Source of the DNA: Cyanobium sp. FGCU52
Lineage (GTDB): Bacteria; Cyanobacteriota; Cyanobacteriia; PCC-6307; Cyanobiaceae
Reading direction: 5' to 3'
NCBI GenBank assembly: GCA_024958715.1
Contig: JANWUS010000053.1
Coordinates: 186,001 to 250,000 of the forward strand
DNA: 64,000 nucleotides
Each line of letters starts with the position of its first letter. Positions within the stretch are counted from its first letter, which is position 1. Shown piece by piece: positions 38,926 to 50,372 of this stretch. Under the pieces are notes generated by a model. It was not told where the DNA came from and did no database searches. It saw nothing but the letters and a program-made list of their open reading frames with translations. The position numbers and the translations under genes were made by a program.

Positions 38926-41900
38926 TTGGCCTTCGTTCCCCTCCACAACCACAGCGACTACAGCCTGCTGGATGGTGCCAGCCAGCTGCCGGCGATGGTG
39001 GAGCGGGCGGTGGAGCTGGGCATGCAGGCCCTGGCCCTCACCGACCACGGGGTGATGTACGGGGCGATCGAGCTGCTGAAGCTGTGCACCAAGGCAGGCA
39101 TCAAGCCGATCATCGGCAACGAGATGTATGTGATCAACGGCTCGATCGACGATCCGCAGCCGAAGAAGGAGCGCCGTTACCACCTGGTGGTGCTGGCCAA
39201 GAACGCCACCGGCTACCGCAACCTGGTGAAGCTCACCAGCATCAGCCACCTGCGCGGCATGCGCGGGCGTGGCATCTTCGCGAGGGCCTGCATCGACAAG
39301 GCCCTGCTGCGCCAGTACAGCGAGGGCCTGATCGTGGCCACCGCCTGCCTCGGCGGTGAGATCCCCCAGGCGATCCTGCGGGGCCGCCCGGAGGTGGCCC
39401 GCGAAGTGGCGGCCTGGTATCAGGAGGTGTTCGCAGGCGACTTCTATCTGGAGATCCAGGACCACGGCGGCCTGGAAGATCGGATCGTGAACGTGGAGAT
39501 CGCCCGCATCGGCGCCGAGCTGGGCATCCCCCTGATCGCCACCAACGACGCCCACTACCTCACGCGCAACGACGTGGAGGCCCACGACGCGCTGCTGTGC
39601 GTGCTCACCGGCAAGCTGATCAGCGACGAAAAGCGCCTGCGCTACACCGGCACCGAGTACATCAAGAGCGAGCAGGAGATGCTCGGCCTGTTCGCCGACC
39701 ACCTGCCCGAGGAGGTGATCGCCGAGGCGGTGGCCAACACGGCACGGGTGGCCGAGAAGGTGGAGGACTACGACATCCTCGGCCGTTACCAGATGCCCCG
39801 CTTCCCGATACCGGAAGGGCATACGCCGGTGAGCTACCTGCGCGAGGTGACCGAGCAGGGGCTGAGGGCGCGGCTGGAGCTGCCGGAGGGGGCGCCGATC
39901 GAGGGCGAGTACGGCGAGCGCATGGCCTTCGAGCTGGAGGTGATGGAGCAGATGGGTTTCCCCACCTACTTCCTGGTGGTGTGGGACTACATCCGCTTCG
40001 CCCGCGACAACGGCATCCCGGTGGGGCCGGGGCGGGGTTCGGCGGCGGGGTCGGTGGTGGCCTATGCGCTGGGCATCACCAATATCGATCCGGTGCGCCA
40101 CGGCCTGCTGTTCGAGCGCTTCCTCAATCCGGAACGCAAATCGATGCCGGACATCGACACCGACTTCTGCATCGAGCGCCGGGGCGAGGTGATCGAGTAC
40201 GTGACCGAGCGCTACGGCGAGGACAAGGTGGCCCAGATCATCACCTTCAACCGCATGACCTCCAAGGCGGTGCTGAAGGATGTGGCCCGGGTGCTCGACA
40301 TCCCCTACGGCGAGGCCGACCGGCTGGCGAAGCTGATCCCGGTGGTGCGCGGCAAGCCGGCGAAGCTGAAGGAGATGATCGGCGAGGAATCACCCACGCC
40401 GGAGTTCCGCGAGAAATACCAACACGATCCCAAGGTGAAGCACTGGGTGGATCTGGCGATGCGGATCGAGGGCACCAACAAAACCTTCGGCGTGCACGCC
40501 GCCGGTGTGGTGATCGCGGCCGAACCGCTGGATGAGCTGGTGCCGCTGCAGCGCAACAACGACGGCCAGGTGATCACCCAGTACTTCATGGAGGACGTGG
40601 AGTCGATGGGGCTGCTGAAGATGGATTTCCTCGGCCTCAAGAACCTCACGATGATCGAGAAAACCATCGAGCTGGTGGCCCGCGCCGAGGGAGAGCGCCT
40701 CGATCCCGACCGCCTGCCGATGGATGATCCGGCCACCTACGGCCTGCTGGCCCGCGGCGATCTGGAGGGCATCTTCCAGCTGGAATCGAGCGGCATGCGC
40801 CAGATCGTGCGCGATCTCAAGCCCTCATCGCTGGAGGACATCTCCTCGATCCTGGCCCTCTACCGGCCGGGGCCGCTGGATGCGGGCCTGATCCCGAAAT
40901 TCATCAACCGCAAGCACGGCCGCGAGGCGATCGATTTCGCCCACGCCAAGCTCGAGCCGATCCTGCGGGAAACCTACGGAATCATGGTGTATCAGGAGCA
41001 GATCATGAAGATCGCCCAGGATCTGGCCGGCTATTCCCTGGGCGAGGCCGATCTGCTGCGGCGGGCGATGGGCAAGAAGAAGAAGAGCGAGATGGAGAAG
41101 CACCAGAGCGTGTTCGTGAAGGGGGCCAGCGAGCGCGGCGTGGATCCGAAGATCGCCGAGGCCCTGTTCGAGCAGATGGTGCTGTTCGCCGAATATTGCT
41201 TCAACAAGAGCCATTCCACCGCCTACGGCGCGGTGACGTATCAGACGGCCTATCTCAAGGCCCACTATCCGGTGGCCTACATGGCGGCCCTGCTCACGGT
41301 GAATGCGGGCCAGAGCGACCGCGTCCAGCGCTACATCGCCAACTGCAACGCCATGGGGATTGAAGTGATGCCCCCGGATGTGAATGCCTCCGGCATCGAC
41401 TTCACCCCCACCGAGGGCCGGATCCTGTTCGGCCTCTCGGCCGTGCGCAACCTGGGGGAGGGGGCGATCCGCCAGCTGATCGAGGCCCGCAGCAACGACG
41501 GCCCGTTCCGCTCCCTGGCGGATCTGTGCGATCGCATCCCCTCCCAGGCGCTCAACCGCCGGGCGCTGGAATCGCTGATCCACTGCGGCGCCCTCGATGC
41601 CCTGGAGAGCGGCGGCAACCGGGCCCAGCTGATGGCCGACCTCGACCTGGTGCTCGACTGGGCCGGCTCAAGGGCCAAGGACCGGGCCAGCGGCCAGGGC
41701 AACCTGTTCGATCTGCTGGCCACGCCGGCCGAGGACGCGGCGGGTGGTGCCGCCGACCTCTCCACCGCTCCGCGGGCGGCGGCGGTGGCCGACTACCCGC
41801 CCCAGGAGAAGCTGAAGCTGGAGAAGGAGCTGCTGGGTTTTTACCTCTCCGACCACCCCCTGCGCCAGCTGGCGGGCTCGCTGCGGCTGCTCTCGCCGAT

Positions 41901-42450
41901 CGCCCTGGCGACGCTGGAGGAGCAGGCCGACAAGGCGAAGGTGAGCGCGGTGGTGATGGTGCCGGAGCTGCGCCAGGTCACCACCCGCAAGGGCGACCGC
42001 ATGGCGGTGCTGCAGCTGGAGGATCTCACCGGCTCCTGCGAGGCGGTGGTGTTCCCCAAGGCCTACGCCCGCCTTGCCGATCACCTGATGGTGGATGCGC
42101 GGCTGATGCTGTGGGCCTCGGTGGATCGCCGCGACGATCGGGTGCAGCTGATCGTCGACGACTGCCGCAGCCTCGACGACCTGCAGCTGGTGCTGGTGGA
42201 TCTGGCGGCGGAGCAGGCCGGCGACATCGCCGTGCAGCACCGCCTGAGGGAATGTCTCACCCGTCACCGCCCCGCCCAGGATGAAGTGGGGGTGCGGGTG
42301 CCGGTGGTGGCGCGGGTGCAGGGCCCAGCGGGGGGGTGCTTCGTGCGGCTGGGTCACCAGTTCTGCGTGGCCGATGCGCCGGCGGCGGTGGCCACCCTGG
42401 CCTCGGCCGACTTCGCCGCCAGCCTGCGCTCGCCCTTGGCCGCTGCCTGA
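38926..42450 (+). CDS. dnaE: DNA polymerase III alpha subunit
   Basis: 1174 residues as one continuous ORF, the main replicative polymerase. The PHP domain opens with [18 protein letters not shown] and [14 protein letters not shown]. The palm carries the catalytic acids in [18 protein letters not shown] (about residue 405-420) and a [14 protein letters not shown] loop (about 366). The HhH and OB regions follow near the end ([20 protein letters not shown] at about 1028). No intein sequence is present, unlike the split dnaE of many other cyanobacteria. The start is a TTG at 38926; no ATG fits the conserved N-terminus. A cheB-cheR gene follows after 32 bases. Confidence 0.97.
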
Positions 42451-42482: not shown

Positions 42483-45464
42483 GTGCACGGGAGCAAGGTG
42501 CCTAGCCTGGACATGGTTCCGGTCGATCCGGCCATGGCGCCACCCCCAGTACCGAGCAGCAACGCCGCCGACCCCCCAGGCCTTCGCACGGTGGTGGCGA
42601 TCGGAGCCTCCGCCGGGGGGCTGGAGGCGCTGCAGGCCTTCGTGGGCGGCCTCGAGCCCGGTGGCCGCACGGCCTATGTGGTGGCCCAGCACCTCTCACC
42701 GGAGCACCGCAGCCTGATCGTTGATCTGCTGGCCCCCTCCACCCGCCTGCCGGTGGTGGCCCCCGTGGACGGGGAGCAGCTGCAGCCCGATCGGATTCAT
42801 GTGGCTCCGCCCCGCCACGACCTCACCCTGGAGCAGGACCGGCTGCGGCTGCGGGAGGCGGAGCCACGCTTCGGTCCCAGCCCGAGCATCGACCTGCTGT
42901 TCGAGTCGCTGGCGGATGCCTGGGGGGAGCACGGCGTGGCGGTGGTGCTCTCCGGCACCGGCTCCGACGGCGCCCGCGGCCTGCGGGCGGTGCGCGCCGC
43001 CGGCGGCCTCACCGTGGCGCAGGCGCCGGCCAGCGCCCGCTTCGAGGCCATGCCCTCCGCCGCGATCACGATCGGCGGGGCCGATCTGATCCTTGAGCCT
43101 GCCCAGATCGGGCCCCGCATCACCGCCCTCTTGACAGGGGCGGCCGCAGGGGGCCTCCAGCCCGCCGGCCCGCAGCGGCCGGTGAGCCTCAGCGCCCTCA
43201 CCGCCCAGCTGAAGCGCGACACCGGCATCGACTTCTCCGATTACAAGGAGTCGACGCTGCAGCGGCAGGTGCACCGGCGGATGGCGATCCGCCAGGTGAC
43301 CACCCTCGAGGAGTACCTTCCCCTGCTGGCGGCGGAGGCGGAGGAATCCCGGGCTCTGCTCCAGAATCTGCTGGTCACGGTGACCTCCTTCTTCCGCGAC
43401 CCTCCCGCGTTCGAGCGGCTGCGGGCCTGCCTGGTGGCCTACCTCAAGCAGCGGGAGGAGTCGGGTCCGATCCGGGCGTGGGTGCCGGGTTGCGCCACCG
43501 GCGAGGAGGTGTACTCGCTGGCGATGCTGTTCAGCGAGCTGCTCGGCCACCCCGCCAATCTGGCCGACCGGTTGAAGATCTTCGGCACCGATCTCGATGA
43601 GAACAGCCTCACGCTGGCGCGCCAGGCGGTGTACCCGCCCGCCGAAACCGCCGCCATCCCCGCCGGCCTGCGCGAGCGCTTCCTGGCGGAGCAGGGCGGC
43701 GATCGGGTGATCCAGGAGCGGCTGCGCGCCTGTTGCGTGTTCGCCAGCCACAACGTGGGCCAGGACCCGCCGTTTCCGCGGCTCGACCTGATCTCCTGCC
43801 GCAACACGCTGATCTACTTCACGGCGCCGATGCAGGAGCGGGTGCTGCGCTTCTTCCGCTTCAGCCTGCTGCCCGGCGCCCTGCTGTTCCTCGGCAGTTC
43901 CGAATCGCTGGCGGGCCGCTCCCCCGGCTTCGAAACGCTCGATGGCGAGCACCACATCTTCCGGCGTTCCGCCGAGGGCAGCGAACGCCGGCGCCCCGCC
44001 GTGCCGGTGCGCAGCCACCGACCCCTGTGGCCGCTGCTGCCCCCTGTTCGGCCGATGGTGGCGCGGGAAACGGTTCCCGAGCAGCACATCAGCCTGCTCG
44101 CCGCCCTGGTGCGCAGTTTCTGCCCGCCGAGCCTGATCCTCGATGACGACCTTCACGTGGTGGAGGTGATCGGCGATGTCTCGCCGTACTGCCGCCTGCC
44201 GGAGGGGCGGCTGAGCACCTCGGTGCATGCCTTCCTCAGCGGCGAGCTGCAGAGCGAGGCGCGGGCGCTGTTCCTGCGGGCCCGCGCTGATGGCGCGGCG
44301 GTGCGCGGGTCTTCGCTGCGGCCCCAGGGGGTGGACATCCTGTTGCACCTGGAGGTGCGCCCGTTGGAGATGGGCGCGAACCGGATGAGCGTGCTCTCGT
44401 TCGTGCCGGAGCCTGCCGACGCCCCGGCATCGGCGGACGTGGCTCCCCTGCCCGCCCGCGATCCCGCCTTCGCCAGCGAGATCGAGAGGCTGGAGAAGGA
44501 ACTGCTCGCCAGCGAGTCGACCCTGCGGCGCTCGATGGCCGAGCTGGAGGCGGCCTACGAGGAGCTCGAGGCCTCCGCCGAGGAACTGCAGGCCTCCTCG
44601 GAGGAACTGCAGTCCTCGAATGAGGAGCTGGAATCCTCCAACGAGGAGCTGCTGGCCGCCAACTAGGAGCTCGCCACTCTCAACCAGCAGCTGCGCTCCC
44701 GCAGCGACGAACTGCAGATCCTCAGCAACGATCTGGAAAGCATCCAGTCCTCGCTGAACCAGGGGATGGTGATCGTGGACCGGCAGCTGTGCGTCACCCG
44801 CTTCACCCCTCTGGCGGTGCGGGTGTTCGCGCTGCTGGAGGCCGACATCGGCCATCCGCTGCTGGGGGTTCCCACCACCGTGCCGATTCCCGGTCTGCAG
44901 GAGGCCCTGGCCGCGGTGGTGGCCGGCGAACCGCGCCGCAGCCTGGAGGCGGCCAACGGGGAGGTGTCGTATCTGGTGCAGATCATGCCCTACCTGGAGC
45001 GCGACGGCAGCCGGCGCGGCGCGATCCTGACCCTCACCGAAGTGTCGGAGTTGGTGGCCCCGCGGCGTGCCGCGCAGGCCTCACTGGAGGCGTTCAAGCG
45101 CCTCACCGACGCCCTGCCGGAGGCGGTGTGGAAGCGCGACGCGACGATGGTGAAGCTGCTCTATGCCAGCGGCCGCTTCCAGGCCCTCACCGGTTGGACA
45201 CCGGCCGAACTCTGCGAGACCTGCGCTCGCCTCGATGACGCCATTGATCCGGCCGATCGGGAGCGGGTGCGGGCCGGCCGCGATGTGCAGCAGCCGGGCT
45301 GGTGCCTGCGCTATGGGCTCACCACCCGTGACGGCCGCAGCATCCGGGTGGAGGAGCAGGCAACGGTGCTGCGCGAAGAGAGCGGCTGCGTCGTGGTGGG
45401 CACGCTGAGGGCCATCGGGGAACCCAAAGACCAGCCGGAGCGTGAGAGGGGTGGGGGCACCTAG
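42483..45464 (+). pseudogene. CheB-CheR-PAS fusion interrupted by an in-frame amber codon
   Basis: The frame opens at GTG 42483 (an ATG at 42513 is possible). The CheB methylesterase domain spans about 36-210, with catalytic S43 (GASAGGLEAL), H70 (VAQHLSPEH) and D162 (SGTGSDGARG). The CheR domain spans about 240-490, with TVTSFFRDPPAFERL and SAM motif WVPGCATGEEVYSLAM. A PAS-like segment and a coiled coil ending SNEELESSNEELLAAN follow. There TAG (44664-44666) stops translation. The same frame continues without a break as ELATLNQQLRSRSDELQ and a second PAS module to 45464, where an ATG at 44766 could restart. One base change (GAG or CAG to TAG) explains it. The 5' part may still work as CheBR; alternatives are sequencing error or readthrough. 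Confidence 0.85.
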
Positions 45465-45471
45465 GTGCCAC

Positions 45472-45870
45472 TCAGGTGCCGCCGCTGCGCATCGCGCGCA
45501 CCGACTCGCGCAGGCGGCCGATGTTGAGCACGATCTGCTCGCTGCCGATCAGGCTGCCGGGGGCGTCCTCCCAGCTGGCGGAGAGCACGCCATAGCTCAG
45601 GCCCAGCAGGCCGAGCAGGAAGCAGGCGCCGGAGGCCACCAGGGTGACCACCGGTGGGATGTCGAGCACGCCCCTGCTCACCAGCAGGTAGCTGCCCACG
45701 AACACCCCCATGCCCAGCACGCTGGGGATGCCGGTGGCGATGGCGATGCGGCGGGCCATGCGCCCGGCGACAACATCCGGGATGACGCGGGCCCGCGGTT
45801 TGGTGCTGGCGGGCCGGGCCGGCGGTGCCGGGGGCGACCCGAACGCCTTCGGTTTGCGCGCGCGTGCCAT
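45472..45870 (-). CDS. PAM68-like photosystem II assembly protein
   Basis: 132 residues. Family pattern: a basic N-terminus (ARARKPKAFG), then VIPDVVAGRMARRIAIATGI leading into helix 1, a second helix (VVTLVASGACFLLGLLGLSY), and the conserved GLSYGVLSASWEDAPGSLIG after it. PAM68 is a thylakoid-membrane factor for early PSII (CP43/CP47) assembly. It is 10 bases downstream of rpsO on the same strand. This order (dnaE, PAM68, rpsO, ruvA) is the one I recall in picocyanobacteria. Its product marks the organism as phototrophic. Confidence 0.88.
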   Translation of the reverse strand: MARARKPKAFGSPPAPPARPASTKPRARVIPDVVAGRMARRIAIATGIPSVLGMGVFVGSYLLVSRGVLDIPPVVTLVASGACFLLGLLGLSYGVLSASWEDAPGSLIGSEQIVLNIGRLRESVRAMRSGGT

Positions 45871-47421: not shown

Positions 47422-48069
47422 ATGGCTCCAGTGCCCCTGCGCTGCCTGTTTGTTGAAGATCACGGCATGTTCGCCGAGCTGGTGGGCGGGCTGCTGCGCA
47501 GTTCCTGCGACCTCGAAATCGTTGAGCTCGCTCGCACGGCGGCCGAGGGTATGGCGGCCATCGATCGCCATCGCCCCGGGCTGCTGATCCTTGATCTCGA
47601 TCTGCCCGACGGTTCCGGCGTGGCCGTGGCCGAGCATCTGCAGGCCACGGTTCCCCACGGCCGCGTGCTGGTGCTTTCGGCCCAGGCCGCCCAGTTCGTC
47701 TGCCCCGAGGGGCTGCAACCGATCGTGATCGCCGTGGTGGACAAGACCCAGGCCATGGATGTGCTGTTGATCCAGGTGGCCGCCTATGTGGAGAACGTCG
47801 TTGGCACGCCCCCCCCTACGGTGTTCACCTTCGAGAAGCTGAGTGGCCTCACCGGCCGGGAGCGTGAGGTGCTGGGCCGGCTCGGGCTGGGTGAGGCCAC
47901 CAAAGCGATCGCCCACCATCTCGACCTCAGCGTGAGCACCGTGGAGAGCCACCGGCGCAACATCGCCGCCAAGCTCGGGGTCAGTGGCGCCGAGCTGATC
48001 CGTCTGGCGGTGCTTCACAACCTCTCCACCCCGCCTACAGCCGGCGGAGCCGGGCTGCCGCCCGCCTGA
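47422..48069 (+). CDS. NarL/FixJ-type response regulator
   Basis: 215 residues. The receiver domain (about 5-125) has FVEDHGMFAE (acidic pair), phospho-acceptor D58 in LLILDLDLPDGSGVAVAEH, and Lys in VVDKTQ. The LuxR-type HTH (about 140-205) reads SGLTGREREVLGRLGLGEAT and DLSVSTVESHRRNIAAKLGV. An AT-rich stretch (GCAAAAATCCTTACATC, 47374-47390) upstream is a possible promoter. The 3' end overlaps, on the opposite strand, the last 55 bases of the PAS histidine kinase gene. Convergent, overlapping and neighbouring, the two are probable partners. Confidence 0.9.
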   Translation: MAPVPLRCLFVEDHGMFAELVGGLLRSSCDLEIVELARTAAEGMAAIDRHRPGLLILDLDLPDGSGVAVAEHLQATVPHGRVLVLSAQAAQFVCPEGLQPIVIAVVDKTQAMDVLLIQVAAYVENVVGTPPPTVFTFEKLSGLTGREREVLGRLGLGEATKAIAHHLDLSVSTVESHRRNIAAKLGVSGAELIRLAVLHNLSTPPTAGGAGLPPA

Positions 48070-50372
48070 TCGCGTTCGTCCAGCGGCGGGGCGAGCGGCA
48101 GGCGCAGCCGCACCGACGCCCCGCCGAGGCTGGAGCGGCCCAGCTCCAGGTTGCCTCCCAGGTTGGCGAGGATCTGCTCCACCACGAACAGCCCCATCCC
48201 GGTGCCGGTGGGCTTGCTCGTTCTCAATAGAAGTTGCTCGCTACTTGGCGAGGGCAGGCCCGGACCGTTGTCGTCCACTGAGAGCTGCACCTGCTGATCC
48301 ACCCGTTCGAGGCTCAGCCGCAGCCGGGCCTGCCCGGCGGGCACCTCGGCCATGGCCTCGATGGCGTTGTCGATCAGGTTGTTGAGGGCGATCTGTAGTT
48401 GGGTGCCATCGCCCTGCACCAGCCATTCAGCCTCAAGAGCCGCCGTTTCCAGGCGGATGCCCCGGCGCTCCAGCCGCGGTCGCTGGTAGAGCAGGGTGCT
48501 GCGCACCACGCTGCCCAGATCGAGGCGAACGGGTTCGGTGGGCACGCTGCGCAGCAGCGCGTTCATGCGCTCGATCGTCTCCACCACGGTGCGGGCGTTC
48601 TGCTCGATGGCGGGGATCAGCGTGGCCAGGGCCGCAGGGGGTGCCGTGGCGTCCGCCAGTTGCCGCTGGACCAGCCGGCTGTGCAGCAGCAGCAGGCTCA
48701 GGGGCTTCTTGATCTCGTGGGCGATCGCCGCCGCCGCCAGGCTGGTGCGCAGCTTGCGGCGCAGCTCCTCGCTCTTGCGCTCCAGCGCCTCCTGCGCCGC
48801 CCGCCGCTCGTCGATCAGGCGGCAGGCGAGTACCAGGCCCTCCACGGCTCCGCTCCGGCCGATGTGGGGCGTGACGTAGCTCTCCAGCCAGCGGAGGGAG
48901 CCGTCCGCCGTGCGGATCCGTTCTTCGCACACCACCCTCTCGCCGGCCAGGAGGCGCGGCCTGGCCTGCTGGTAGCCGGGACAGGCGCCGCCGTGCTCGA
49001 GGAAGTCGGTGCCGCGCCGCCCCAGCCACTGCTGCGGCTGCCAGCCCAGCAGCGCGGGCAGCGAAGGCGACACCCAGCGAATGATGCCGTCGAGATCGAG
49101 GCGCACCACCAGTTCGCCGCTGCTGCGGGTGAGCAGCTCGATCGTTTCGCTCATCTCGGCCCGTTCGCTGATGTCACGCCAGGTGACGACCAGGCCATCG
49201 CCGAGCTTCACCACCCGCAGATCGAAGTGGCGCAGGGGCTGACCCACGGCCTCCGCAATCACCAGGTTGTCGATCGCCAGCGGCTCGCCGCTCTCCAGGG
49301 TGTGCAGGTAGCGGCCGAACAGCTCGGGGTCGCGCAGGGCCGGCACCACCGGCAGCACCCTTGCCCCCAGCAGCCGCTCCATGGGCTGCCCCATCGCCTG
49401 GCACGCCATCGGATTGACGGCCAGGTAGCGGAAATCCACCACCTTGCCCTCGCTGTCGCGTACCGCCTCGATCACCACGTGGGGATCGAGCAGCGAATCC
49501 AGCGTGGCCCGCAGCCGCTGCCGCTCCGCCGCCTCCCGCTCGCGGGTGCGCACCAGCTCATCCACATCGCGCAGGCCGCTCACGTAGCCGCTGATCGTGC
49601 CGTCGGATTCGCGCAGCGGCGCCACCATCACCGCCATCCAGCGGTAGCCCCCGGAGGCGGTGCGCATGCGCAGCAGGCAATCCCTGGGCCACTGGCCGCT
49701 GGCCAGCAGGGCGGCGCTGAGCTCCGCCAGCCTGGGACGGTCGTCGGGATGGACCCGCTGATCGAGGCTCACCCCCAGCTCGGCGTCGGCCGGCCAGCCG
49801 AGGGCGGTACGGCCTTCGCTGTCAGCGCTGATCCACACCGCCCGCAGGCTGGTGTCGAGCATCACCATCAGATCGCTGCCGAGTTCGGCCAGCTGGCGGA
49901 AGCGCTCATGCCCGCTCTCCAGCTGCCTCCGTGTCTGCACGATCTCGGTGGCATCCACCAGCTGGAAGATGGTGCCCCAGAGCCGGCCTTCGGGATCCTT
50001 CACCGCCGACACCGTCAGGTCGCCCCAGATCACGCTGCCGTCGGCGTGGAGGTAGCGCTTGGTGAGGCGGTAGTGATCGCATTCCCCCGCCAGCAGCCTG
50101 CGGTGCGTCTGCAGCGAGAGGGTGAGGTCGTCGGGATGGGTGAGGCTCTGCCAGTCCCGGGCCAGCAGATCCTCACGGGTGCGGCCCGTGAAGCGCTCCA
50201 GCGCCCCGTTCAACTCACGCAACCGCCCTCCGGGCGTCGCCAGGCCCATGGCGATCGGGGAGTGCTCGGCCGCCAGCTGGAACAGCAGGGTGTCGTGGTG
50301 GAGGGCCCTGTTCATCGCACCCTCGCTGGGCCCCCTGCTTGCCTCTCCGTGCATGGGCTGATGGGCCTTCAC
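48015..50372 (-). CDS. PAS-repeat sensor histidine kinase
   Basis: 785 residues, soluble, no membrane helix. Four PAS/PAC modules occur in the first 500 residues (LFQLAAEHSPIAMGLATPGG; FRQLAELGSDLMVMLDTSLR; a third with AVRDSEGKVVDFRYLAVNPM; IELLTRSSGELVVRLDLDGI). The kinase core has its His in AAAIAHEIKKPLSLLLLHSR (about residue 551), the N box in LQIALNNLIDNAIEAMAEVP, and G boxes VDDNGPGLPS and PTGTGMGLFVVEQILANLGG. The first listed start is at 50372; ATG codons at 50354 and 50315 are alternatives. Its C-terminus is encoded opposite the end of the response regulator gene. Signals are probably cytosolic redox or small ligands. Confidence 0.92.
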   Translation of the reverse strand: MKAHQPMHGEASRGPSEGAMNRALHHDTLLFQLAAEHSPIAMGLATPGGRLRELNGALERFTGRTREDLLARDWQSLTHPDDLTLSLQTHRRLLAGECDHYRLTKRYLHADGSVIWGDLTVSAVKDPEGRLWGTIFQLVDATEIVQTRRQLESGHERFRQLAELGSDLMVMLDTSLRAVWISADSEGRTALGWPADAELGVSLDQRVHPDDRPRLAELSAALLASGQWPRDCLLRMRTASGGYRWMAVMVAPLRESDGTISGYVSGLRDVDELVRTREREAAERQRLRATLDSLLDPHVVIEAVRDSEGKVVDFRYLAVNPMACQAMGQPMERLLGARVLPVVPALRDPELFGRYLHTLESGEPLAIDNLVIAEAVGQPLRHFDLRVVKLGDGLVVTWRDISERAEMSETIELLTRSSGELVVRLDLDGIIRWVSPSLPALLGWQPQQWLGRRGTDFLEHGGACPGYQQARPRLLAGERVVCEERIRTADGSLRWLESYVTPHIGRSGAVEGLVLACRLIDERRAAQEALERKSEELRRKLRTSLAAAAIAHEIKKPLSLLLLHSRLVQRQLADATAPPAALATLIPAIEQNARTVVETIERMNALLRSVPTEPVRLDLGSVVRSTLLYQRPRLERRGIRLETAALEAEWLVQGDGTQLQIALNNLIDNAIEAMAEVPAGQARLRLSLERVDQQVQLSVDDNGPGLPSPSSEQLLLRTSKPTGTGMGLFVVEQILANLGGNLELGRSSLGGASVRLRLPLAPPLDERDQAGGSPAPPAVGGVERL

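Follow-up and report, generated by a model that had tools for sequence, protein, structure and literature searches.

What a single amber codon means in an otherwise open CheB-CheR-PAS frame is the question raised by this locus of Cyanobium sp. FGCU52. The window, which is the whole stretch of 64,000 nucleotides that was analysed (contig JANWUS010000053.1, positions 186,001 to 250,000), carries the frame on the plus strand at 42483-45464. A first-pass annotation had proposed three readings: the gene might have become a pseudogene recently, the stop might be read through under regulation, or it might be an error of sequencing. Our comparison with other genomes of the genus suggests that the window copy is probably a recently disabled orphan cheB-cheR-PAS gene, which is being lost by ordinary decay.

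Translation of 42483-45464 confirmed the single in-frame TAG at 44664-44666, which had been noticed between LLAAN and ELATLNQQL; over this site the frame reads SSNEELLAAN, the stop and ELATLNQQL, and the next in-frame stop is the TAG at 45462-45464. The whole frame of 993 codons thus holds one stop and zero frameshifts. It does stay open behind the amber codon, as had been stated, but the count is 265 codons plus the stop rather than 266. The CheB methylesterase, CheR_N and CheR domains occur together in the frame over the Pfam cut-offs, which is a feature of the CheB-CheR-PAS family; another family feature, PAS domains joined through the coil in one unbroken frame, is absent. The amber codon lies in the coil between the CheB-CheR part and two PAS domains, and the Pfam PAS family is also matched after it, beside PAS_10 and PAS_3. 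The parts of the locus are listed below.

38926-42450, plus strand: dnaE (DNA polymerase III alpha), the upstream neighbour (ORF list, domain check)
42483-44666, plus strand: CheB-CheR part, whose 727 residues run up to the amber codon (ORF list, translation, Pfam); the putative start, GTG 42483, is taken from the ORF list, and ATG 42513 is an alternative
42594-43121, plus strand: CheB methylesterase domain, aa 38-213 (Pfam PF01339, E 1.2e-51)
43191-43328, plus strand: CheR N-terminal domain (CheR_N), aa 237-282 (Pfam PF03705, E 1.2e-12)
43380-43949, plus strand: CheR methyltransferase domain, aa 300-489 (Pfam PF01739, E 3e-44)
44475-44760, plus strand: repetitive EEL coil, broken by the amber codon (translation, alignment; limits set by eye)
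44664-44666, plus strand: in-frame TAG, a sense codon in 36/36 relatives (sequence, alignment)
44667-45464, plus strand: open frame after the amber codon; it holds 265 codons, two PAS domains and the closing TAG (translation, Pfam)
44736-45044, plus strand: PAS_10 domain (Pfam PF13596, E 1.7e-13)
44766-44768, plus strand: ATG, the earliest in-frame start past the amber codon, 99 bases downstream (ORF list)
45159-45395, plus strand: PAS_3 domain (Pfam PF08447, E 1e-09)
45462-45471, plus strand: early end, formed by the second TAG and a 7-base gap to the convergent gene (sequence, orthologs)
45472-45870, minus strand: PAM68-type protein, the convergent downstream neighbour, which adjoins dnaE in relatives (Pfam PF11947)

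Because Pfam domains lie on either side of the amber codon and 30 full-length copies from the genus can be aligned across it, all with a coil free of stops, both sides belong to one gene. Among 42 genomes of the genus searched, 36 gave a match, and a genuine CheB-CheR-PAS gene was found in Cyanobium sp. FGCU52 (G000) and in 33 other genomes; three of these copies are fragmented or run off the contig. The genomes G027 and G029 have only weakly similar separate CheB or CheR genes, some of these weak matches containing stops, and were not counted. The contig search returned eight loci, of which six at 31-34% identity were left out, and the search of plasmids for the gene gave no match. The intact genes of the genus (33 genomes) show the same order of CheB, CheR, coil, PAS and PAS with 55-62% full-length identity; those of Cyanobium sp. 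CZS48M (L032) and Synechococcus sp. CS-1329 (L033) are 59% identical to the window copy. In FGCU52 itself, whose assembly of 87 contigs totals 3.48 Mb, the gene is present once, and a search for a second copy returned a single match.

At the column of the amber codon, the 36 aligned relatives (32 full-length orthologs, the three partial copies L112, L113 and L114, and the paralog L115, the last four being left out of the full-length counts) carry Glu in 30 cases, Asp in three, Gln in two and Leu in one. The codons are GAG in 22, GAA in eight, GAT and CAG in two each, and GAC and CTT in one each. The expectation of Glu or Gln at this place was thus right, and in 24 of the 36 relatives a single base change would turn the codon (GAG or CAG) into TAG. 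None of the 36 keeps an amber codon here, and no other CheB-CheR-PAS copy in the 42-genome search has a stop in the coil, FGCU52 being alone; the stop listed for G037, a TGA, precedes the CheB domain, as it is found at residue 4 of the match. The paralog (L115:2152-5988, genome G040) combines CheB, CheR, PAS, GGDEF and EAL in one frame, and its GGDEF and EAL domains point to a possible link of that paralog with cyclic-di-GMP signalling.

The amber codon is one of several lesions. One substitution does explain the stop itself, as was first proposed, but it does not account for the others, namely a shortened 3' end, an unusual place and the absence of the usual neighbour, which had been missed when the stop was seen. 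The intact genes differ from the window copy in their open coil, in a further C-terminal PAS region and in an accompanying AraC-type gene. All 32 full-length orthologs run 106-134 residues beyond the end of the window gene, and in both orthologs scanned this extra stretch matches PAS (residues 986-1034 of L089 and 980-1019 of L082); this further PAS region, typical of the genus form, is absent from the window copy, and the 3' end of the convergent PAM68-type gene sits seven bases past the second TAG. A relic of the last PAS region gave no convincing match just downstream or in the other stretches of FGCU52 that were examined; a separate search of FGCU52 and the sister genome G030 was run without a positive control, so its empty result shows little. 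A perfect 14-base palindrome, GGCACCTAGGTGCC, spans the second TAG at 45456-45469 and is single in the window; it may have arisen by chance or mark the 3' break.

Of the 27 orthologs whose loci extend 1.2 kb or more upstream, 26 have a divergent AraC-type gene there, the exception being L104; the paralog L115, which shows none, was uncounted, and eight rows had too little room. The window copy has no such partner, dnaE standing there instead, and the AraC proteins of FGCU52 nearest to the partner of the orthologs are 36% and 30% identical to it and encoded on other contigs. The AraC-type regulator accompanies CheB-CheR-PAS in 26 loci across different neighbourhoods (for example L089:6418-7521), as if the two genes had moved or been kept together. 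In 16 relatives the pair stands between ilvD and a gene row with g145, cia30, gnd and glgC (ilvD, CIA30 and glgC were checked by Pfam, and the other neighbour labels were given by eye), and in both FGCU52 and G030 ilvD and g145 adjoin without it. Between dnaE and the PAM68-type gene, where the window copy stands, no copy is present in any of the 27 relatives whose loci show both genes, two more loci ending short of dnaE.

FGCU52 and G030 are sisters with 91% identity and a support of 100 in a tree built from fragments of five housekeeping proteins. G030, listed as 99% complete, has no CheB-CheR-PAS copy, and one search gave only a match at E 4.6e-4. About 40 bases of its dnaE-pam68 spacer of 145 bases align with the 5' end of the window gene in the same order and strand, with a score of 29 that 1 of 2000 shuffles reached; in the controls, unrelated slices of the window matched this score at two places on the minus strand, and the spacers of other relatives scored 26 or less. 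This alignment is suggestive only; what it may show is a remnant of the gene's 5' end in the spacer. The gene may have entered FGCU52 after its split from G030, or G030 may have lost it. Elsewhere in the window, a response regulator and a PAS histidine kinase (47422-50372) form an intact pair, which matches G030 at L157:11097-13300 in several frames, the regulator in frames 2 and 3 and the kinase in frames -3, -1 and -2; this pair looks frameshifted in G030.

The window copy is also divergent in its protein sequence. At columns that are nearly invariant among the orthologs, it departs at 13 of 223 before the amber codon (rank 2 of 33, after L109; median 0.014) and at 8 of 81 after it (rank 1 of 33; median 0.013), with no significant difference between the two parts (p 0.21). 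Two of the departures, Q724L and T726A, fall within four codons of the stop. The high number of departures would fit relaxed selection but is no proof of it, and no close relative carries the gene. Ranked from the lowest mean identity to the orthologs among 33, the window copy is sixth for CheB (0.649) and seventh for CheR (0.607), first for aa 500-660, second for the coil, fourth for the first PAS domain and third for the second. Other orthologs on long branches (L109, L107 and L100) are nearly as deviant, yet their frames are open. In the cheBR tree, which like the housekeeping tree is a quick tree without a mixture model, the window copy sits on a long branch (0.6) beside a clade of 16 rows with a support of 92 and no starred set. 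The long branch has no starred support, and therefore the deviance may reflect an unsampled source rather than relaxed selection.

With one stop, no frameshift and good Pfam scores, the gene is not far decayed. About 2.4% of the single substitutions in the frame create a stop, and at 5% neutral change the chance of finding at most one stop in 993 codons is 0.13, rising to 0.59 if the change is 2%; the loss would therefore be recent or in progress. The sequence of events that we propose is as follows. The copy would have come to stand away from its usual neighbours, with neither a divergent AraC-type partner nor the final PAS domain, and would then have been cut a second time by a nonsense substitution within the coiled coil. 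Ribosomes would terminate at the TAG through RF1, presumably with efficiency, so that the product would be at most a CheB-CheR protein of 727 residues with a stump of the coil, and the two remaining PAS domains would be unmade or made in trace only from ATG 44766. From these features of the gene we infer both this order of the lesions and a protein that no longer works.

A shorter protein that still works would be an alternative to decay. It would be a CheB-CheR enzyme of 727 residues, freed of its PAS outputs, made and active, with a stop that is tolerated or even useful. Such a product agrees with the CheB and CheR domains, which Pfam finds complete and whose identities lie inside the ortholog range. 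However, the part before the stop is itself among the most deviant at near-invariant columns, none of the 33 copies has a lower mean identity over the PAS-like stretch (about aa 500-660), no relative has the short form, and no chemoreceptor substrate was found in the genome. We therefore regard a functional truncation as unlikely.

A sequencing or assembly error, with a sense codon at 44664 in the real genome, is an improbable explanation of about the same weight. It would need one base to give GAG or CAG, and the rest of the frame is clean. On the other hand, the intact frames of G030 matched over the window show no clear second interrupted gene, and an error would leave the missing PAS region, AraC gene and usual locus unexplained. 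Of the stops met in these matches, some mark the upstream border of a stop-to-stop frame, others belong to a frame antisense to an hsp70-like gene (labelled by eye), and the rest fall in three short matches. A tally of stops in the window gave 36 TGA and two TAG of 38, from uncurated matches that may include antisense frames, and it was given no weight. The truncation and the error are close together in weight, and readthrough stands behind both.

Programmed or suppressor-driven readthrough, giving a small amount of full protein, is very unlikely. The frame after the amber codon is open and homologous, and PMC7918605, as far as its available text goes, argues that many in-frame stops in bacterial genes are tolerated; against this stand the lack of the amber codon in any relative and a downstream part that is the most deviant of 33. 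RF1 is present in FGCU52 over the family cut-off, and none of its 40 tRNA genes has a CTA anticodon, in a set that is incomplete because Ile-GAT and Ala-TGC are missing from it; readthrough is thus without support, and a change of the genetic code or a suppressor tRNA was rejected on these grounds. An RNA signal at the stop was likewise rejected, since the folding around it is ordinary: z is -1.33, and 18 of 200 shuffled sequences fold with equal or greater stability. The genes described in the consulted part of PMC7918605 share with the window gene a frame that is open but for one in-frame stop; here, however, the stop occurs in one genome only, and both a domain and a neighbouring gene are gone as well. 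It would be equally surprising if the stop and the lost last PAS had freed the CheB-CheR enzyme while the PAS-PAS piece restarted at ATG 44766, a one-step split into two proteins in a lineage without detectable chemoreceptors. Among the three readings offered at first, then, the recent pseudogene fits a codon that is sense in 36/36 relatives and the absence of the last PAS, the AraC gene, the usual locus and a copy in the sister genome, and regulated readthrough fails on RF1, the missing CTA tRNA and a stop shared by no relative.

CheB and CheR are adaptation enzymes of chemotaxis, and the CheW-type domain is borne by CheA too. We sought MCP and CheW domains in eight genomes of the genus, with control genomes that were positive in 7 of 14, and found both in G011 only. 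Six of those tested are carriers of the CheB-CheR-PAS gene; besides G011, these are G008, G016, G028 and G035, which carry the gene, and FGCU52, which carries its remains, and these five have no detectable MCP or CheW domain. The absence of receptors in most of the tested genomes argues for a CheB-CheR-PAS protein that acts on another substrate.

In freshwater picocyanobacteria, the available part of PMC11316352 describes cheBR as a gene found selectively in one ecotype (SC5.2 HN) and suggests pili-mediated chemotaxis for it. Likened by this description only, it is probably the same kind of gene as that of the window; in contrast to the proposed link with chemotaxis, five of the six carrier genomes tested here lack MCP and CheW domains. 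RC1_3878 of Rhodospirillum centenum, as described in the accessible text of PMC2890560, is a CheB-CheR hybrid with both enzymes in one protein, as in the window, and this likeness too is one of description; unlike the genomes here, R. centenum has full chemotaxis clusters. Our literature search found no study on the function of the CheB-CheR-PAS gene in the genus.

The nonsense allele itself is ordinary, and its value is comparative. If the window copy is a gene undergoing loss, as we propose, it suggests that the CheB-CheR-PAS protein is dispensable in the lineage of Cyanobium sp. FGCU52, although PMC11316352, in the part available, reads cheBR as an indication of pili-mediated chemotaxis. 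Members of the family are present in genomes without a detectable chemoreceptor or CheW domain.
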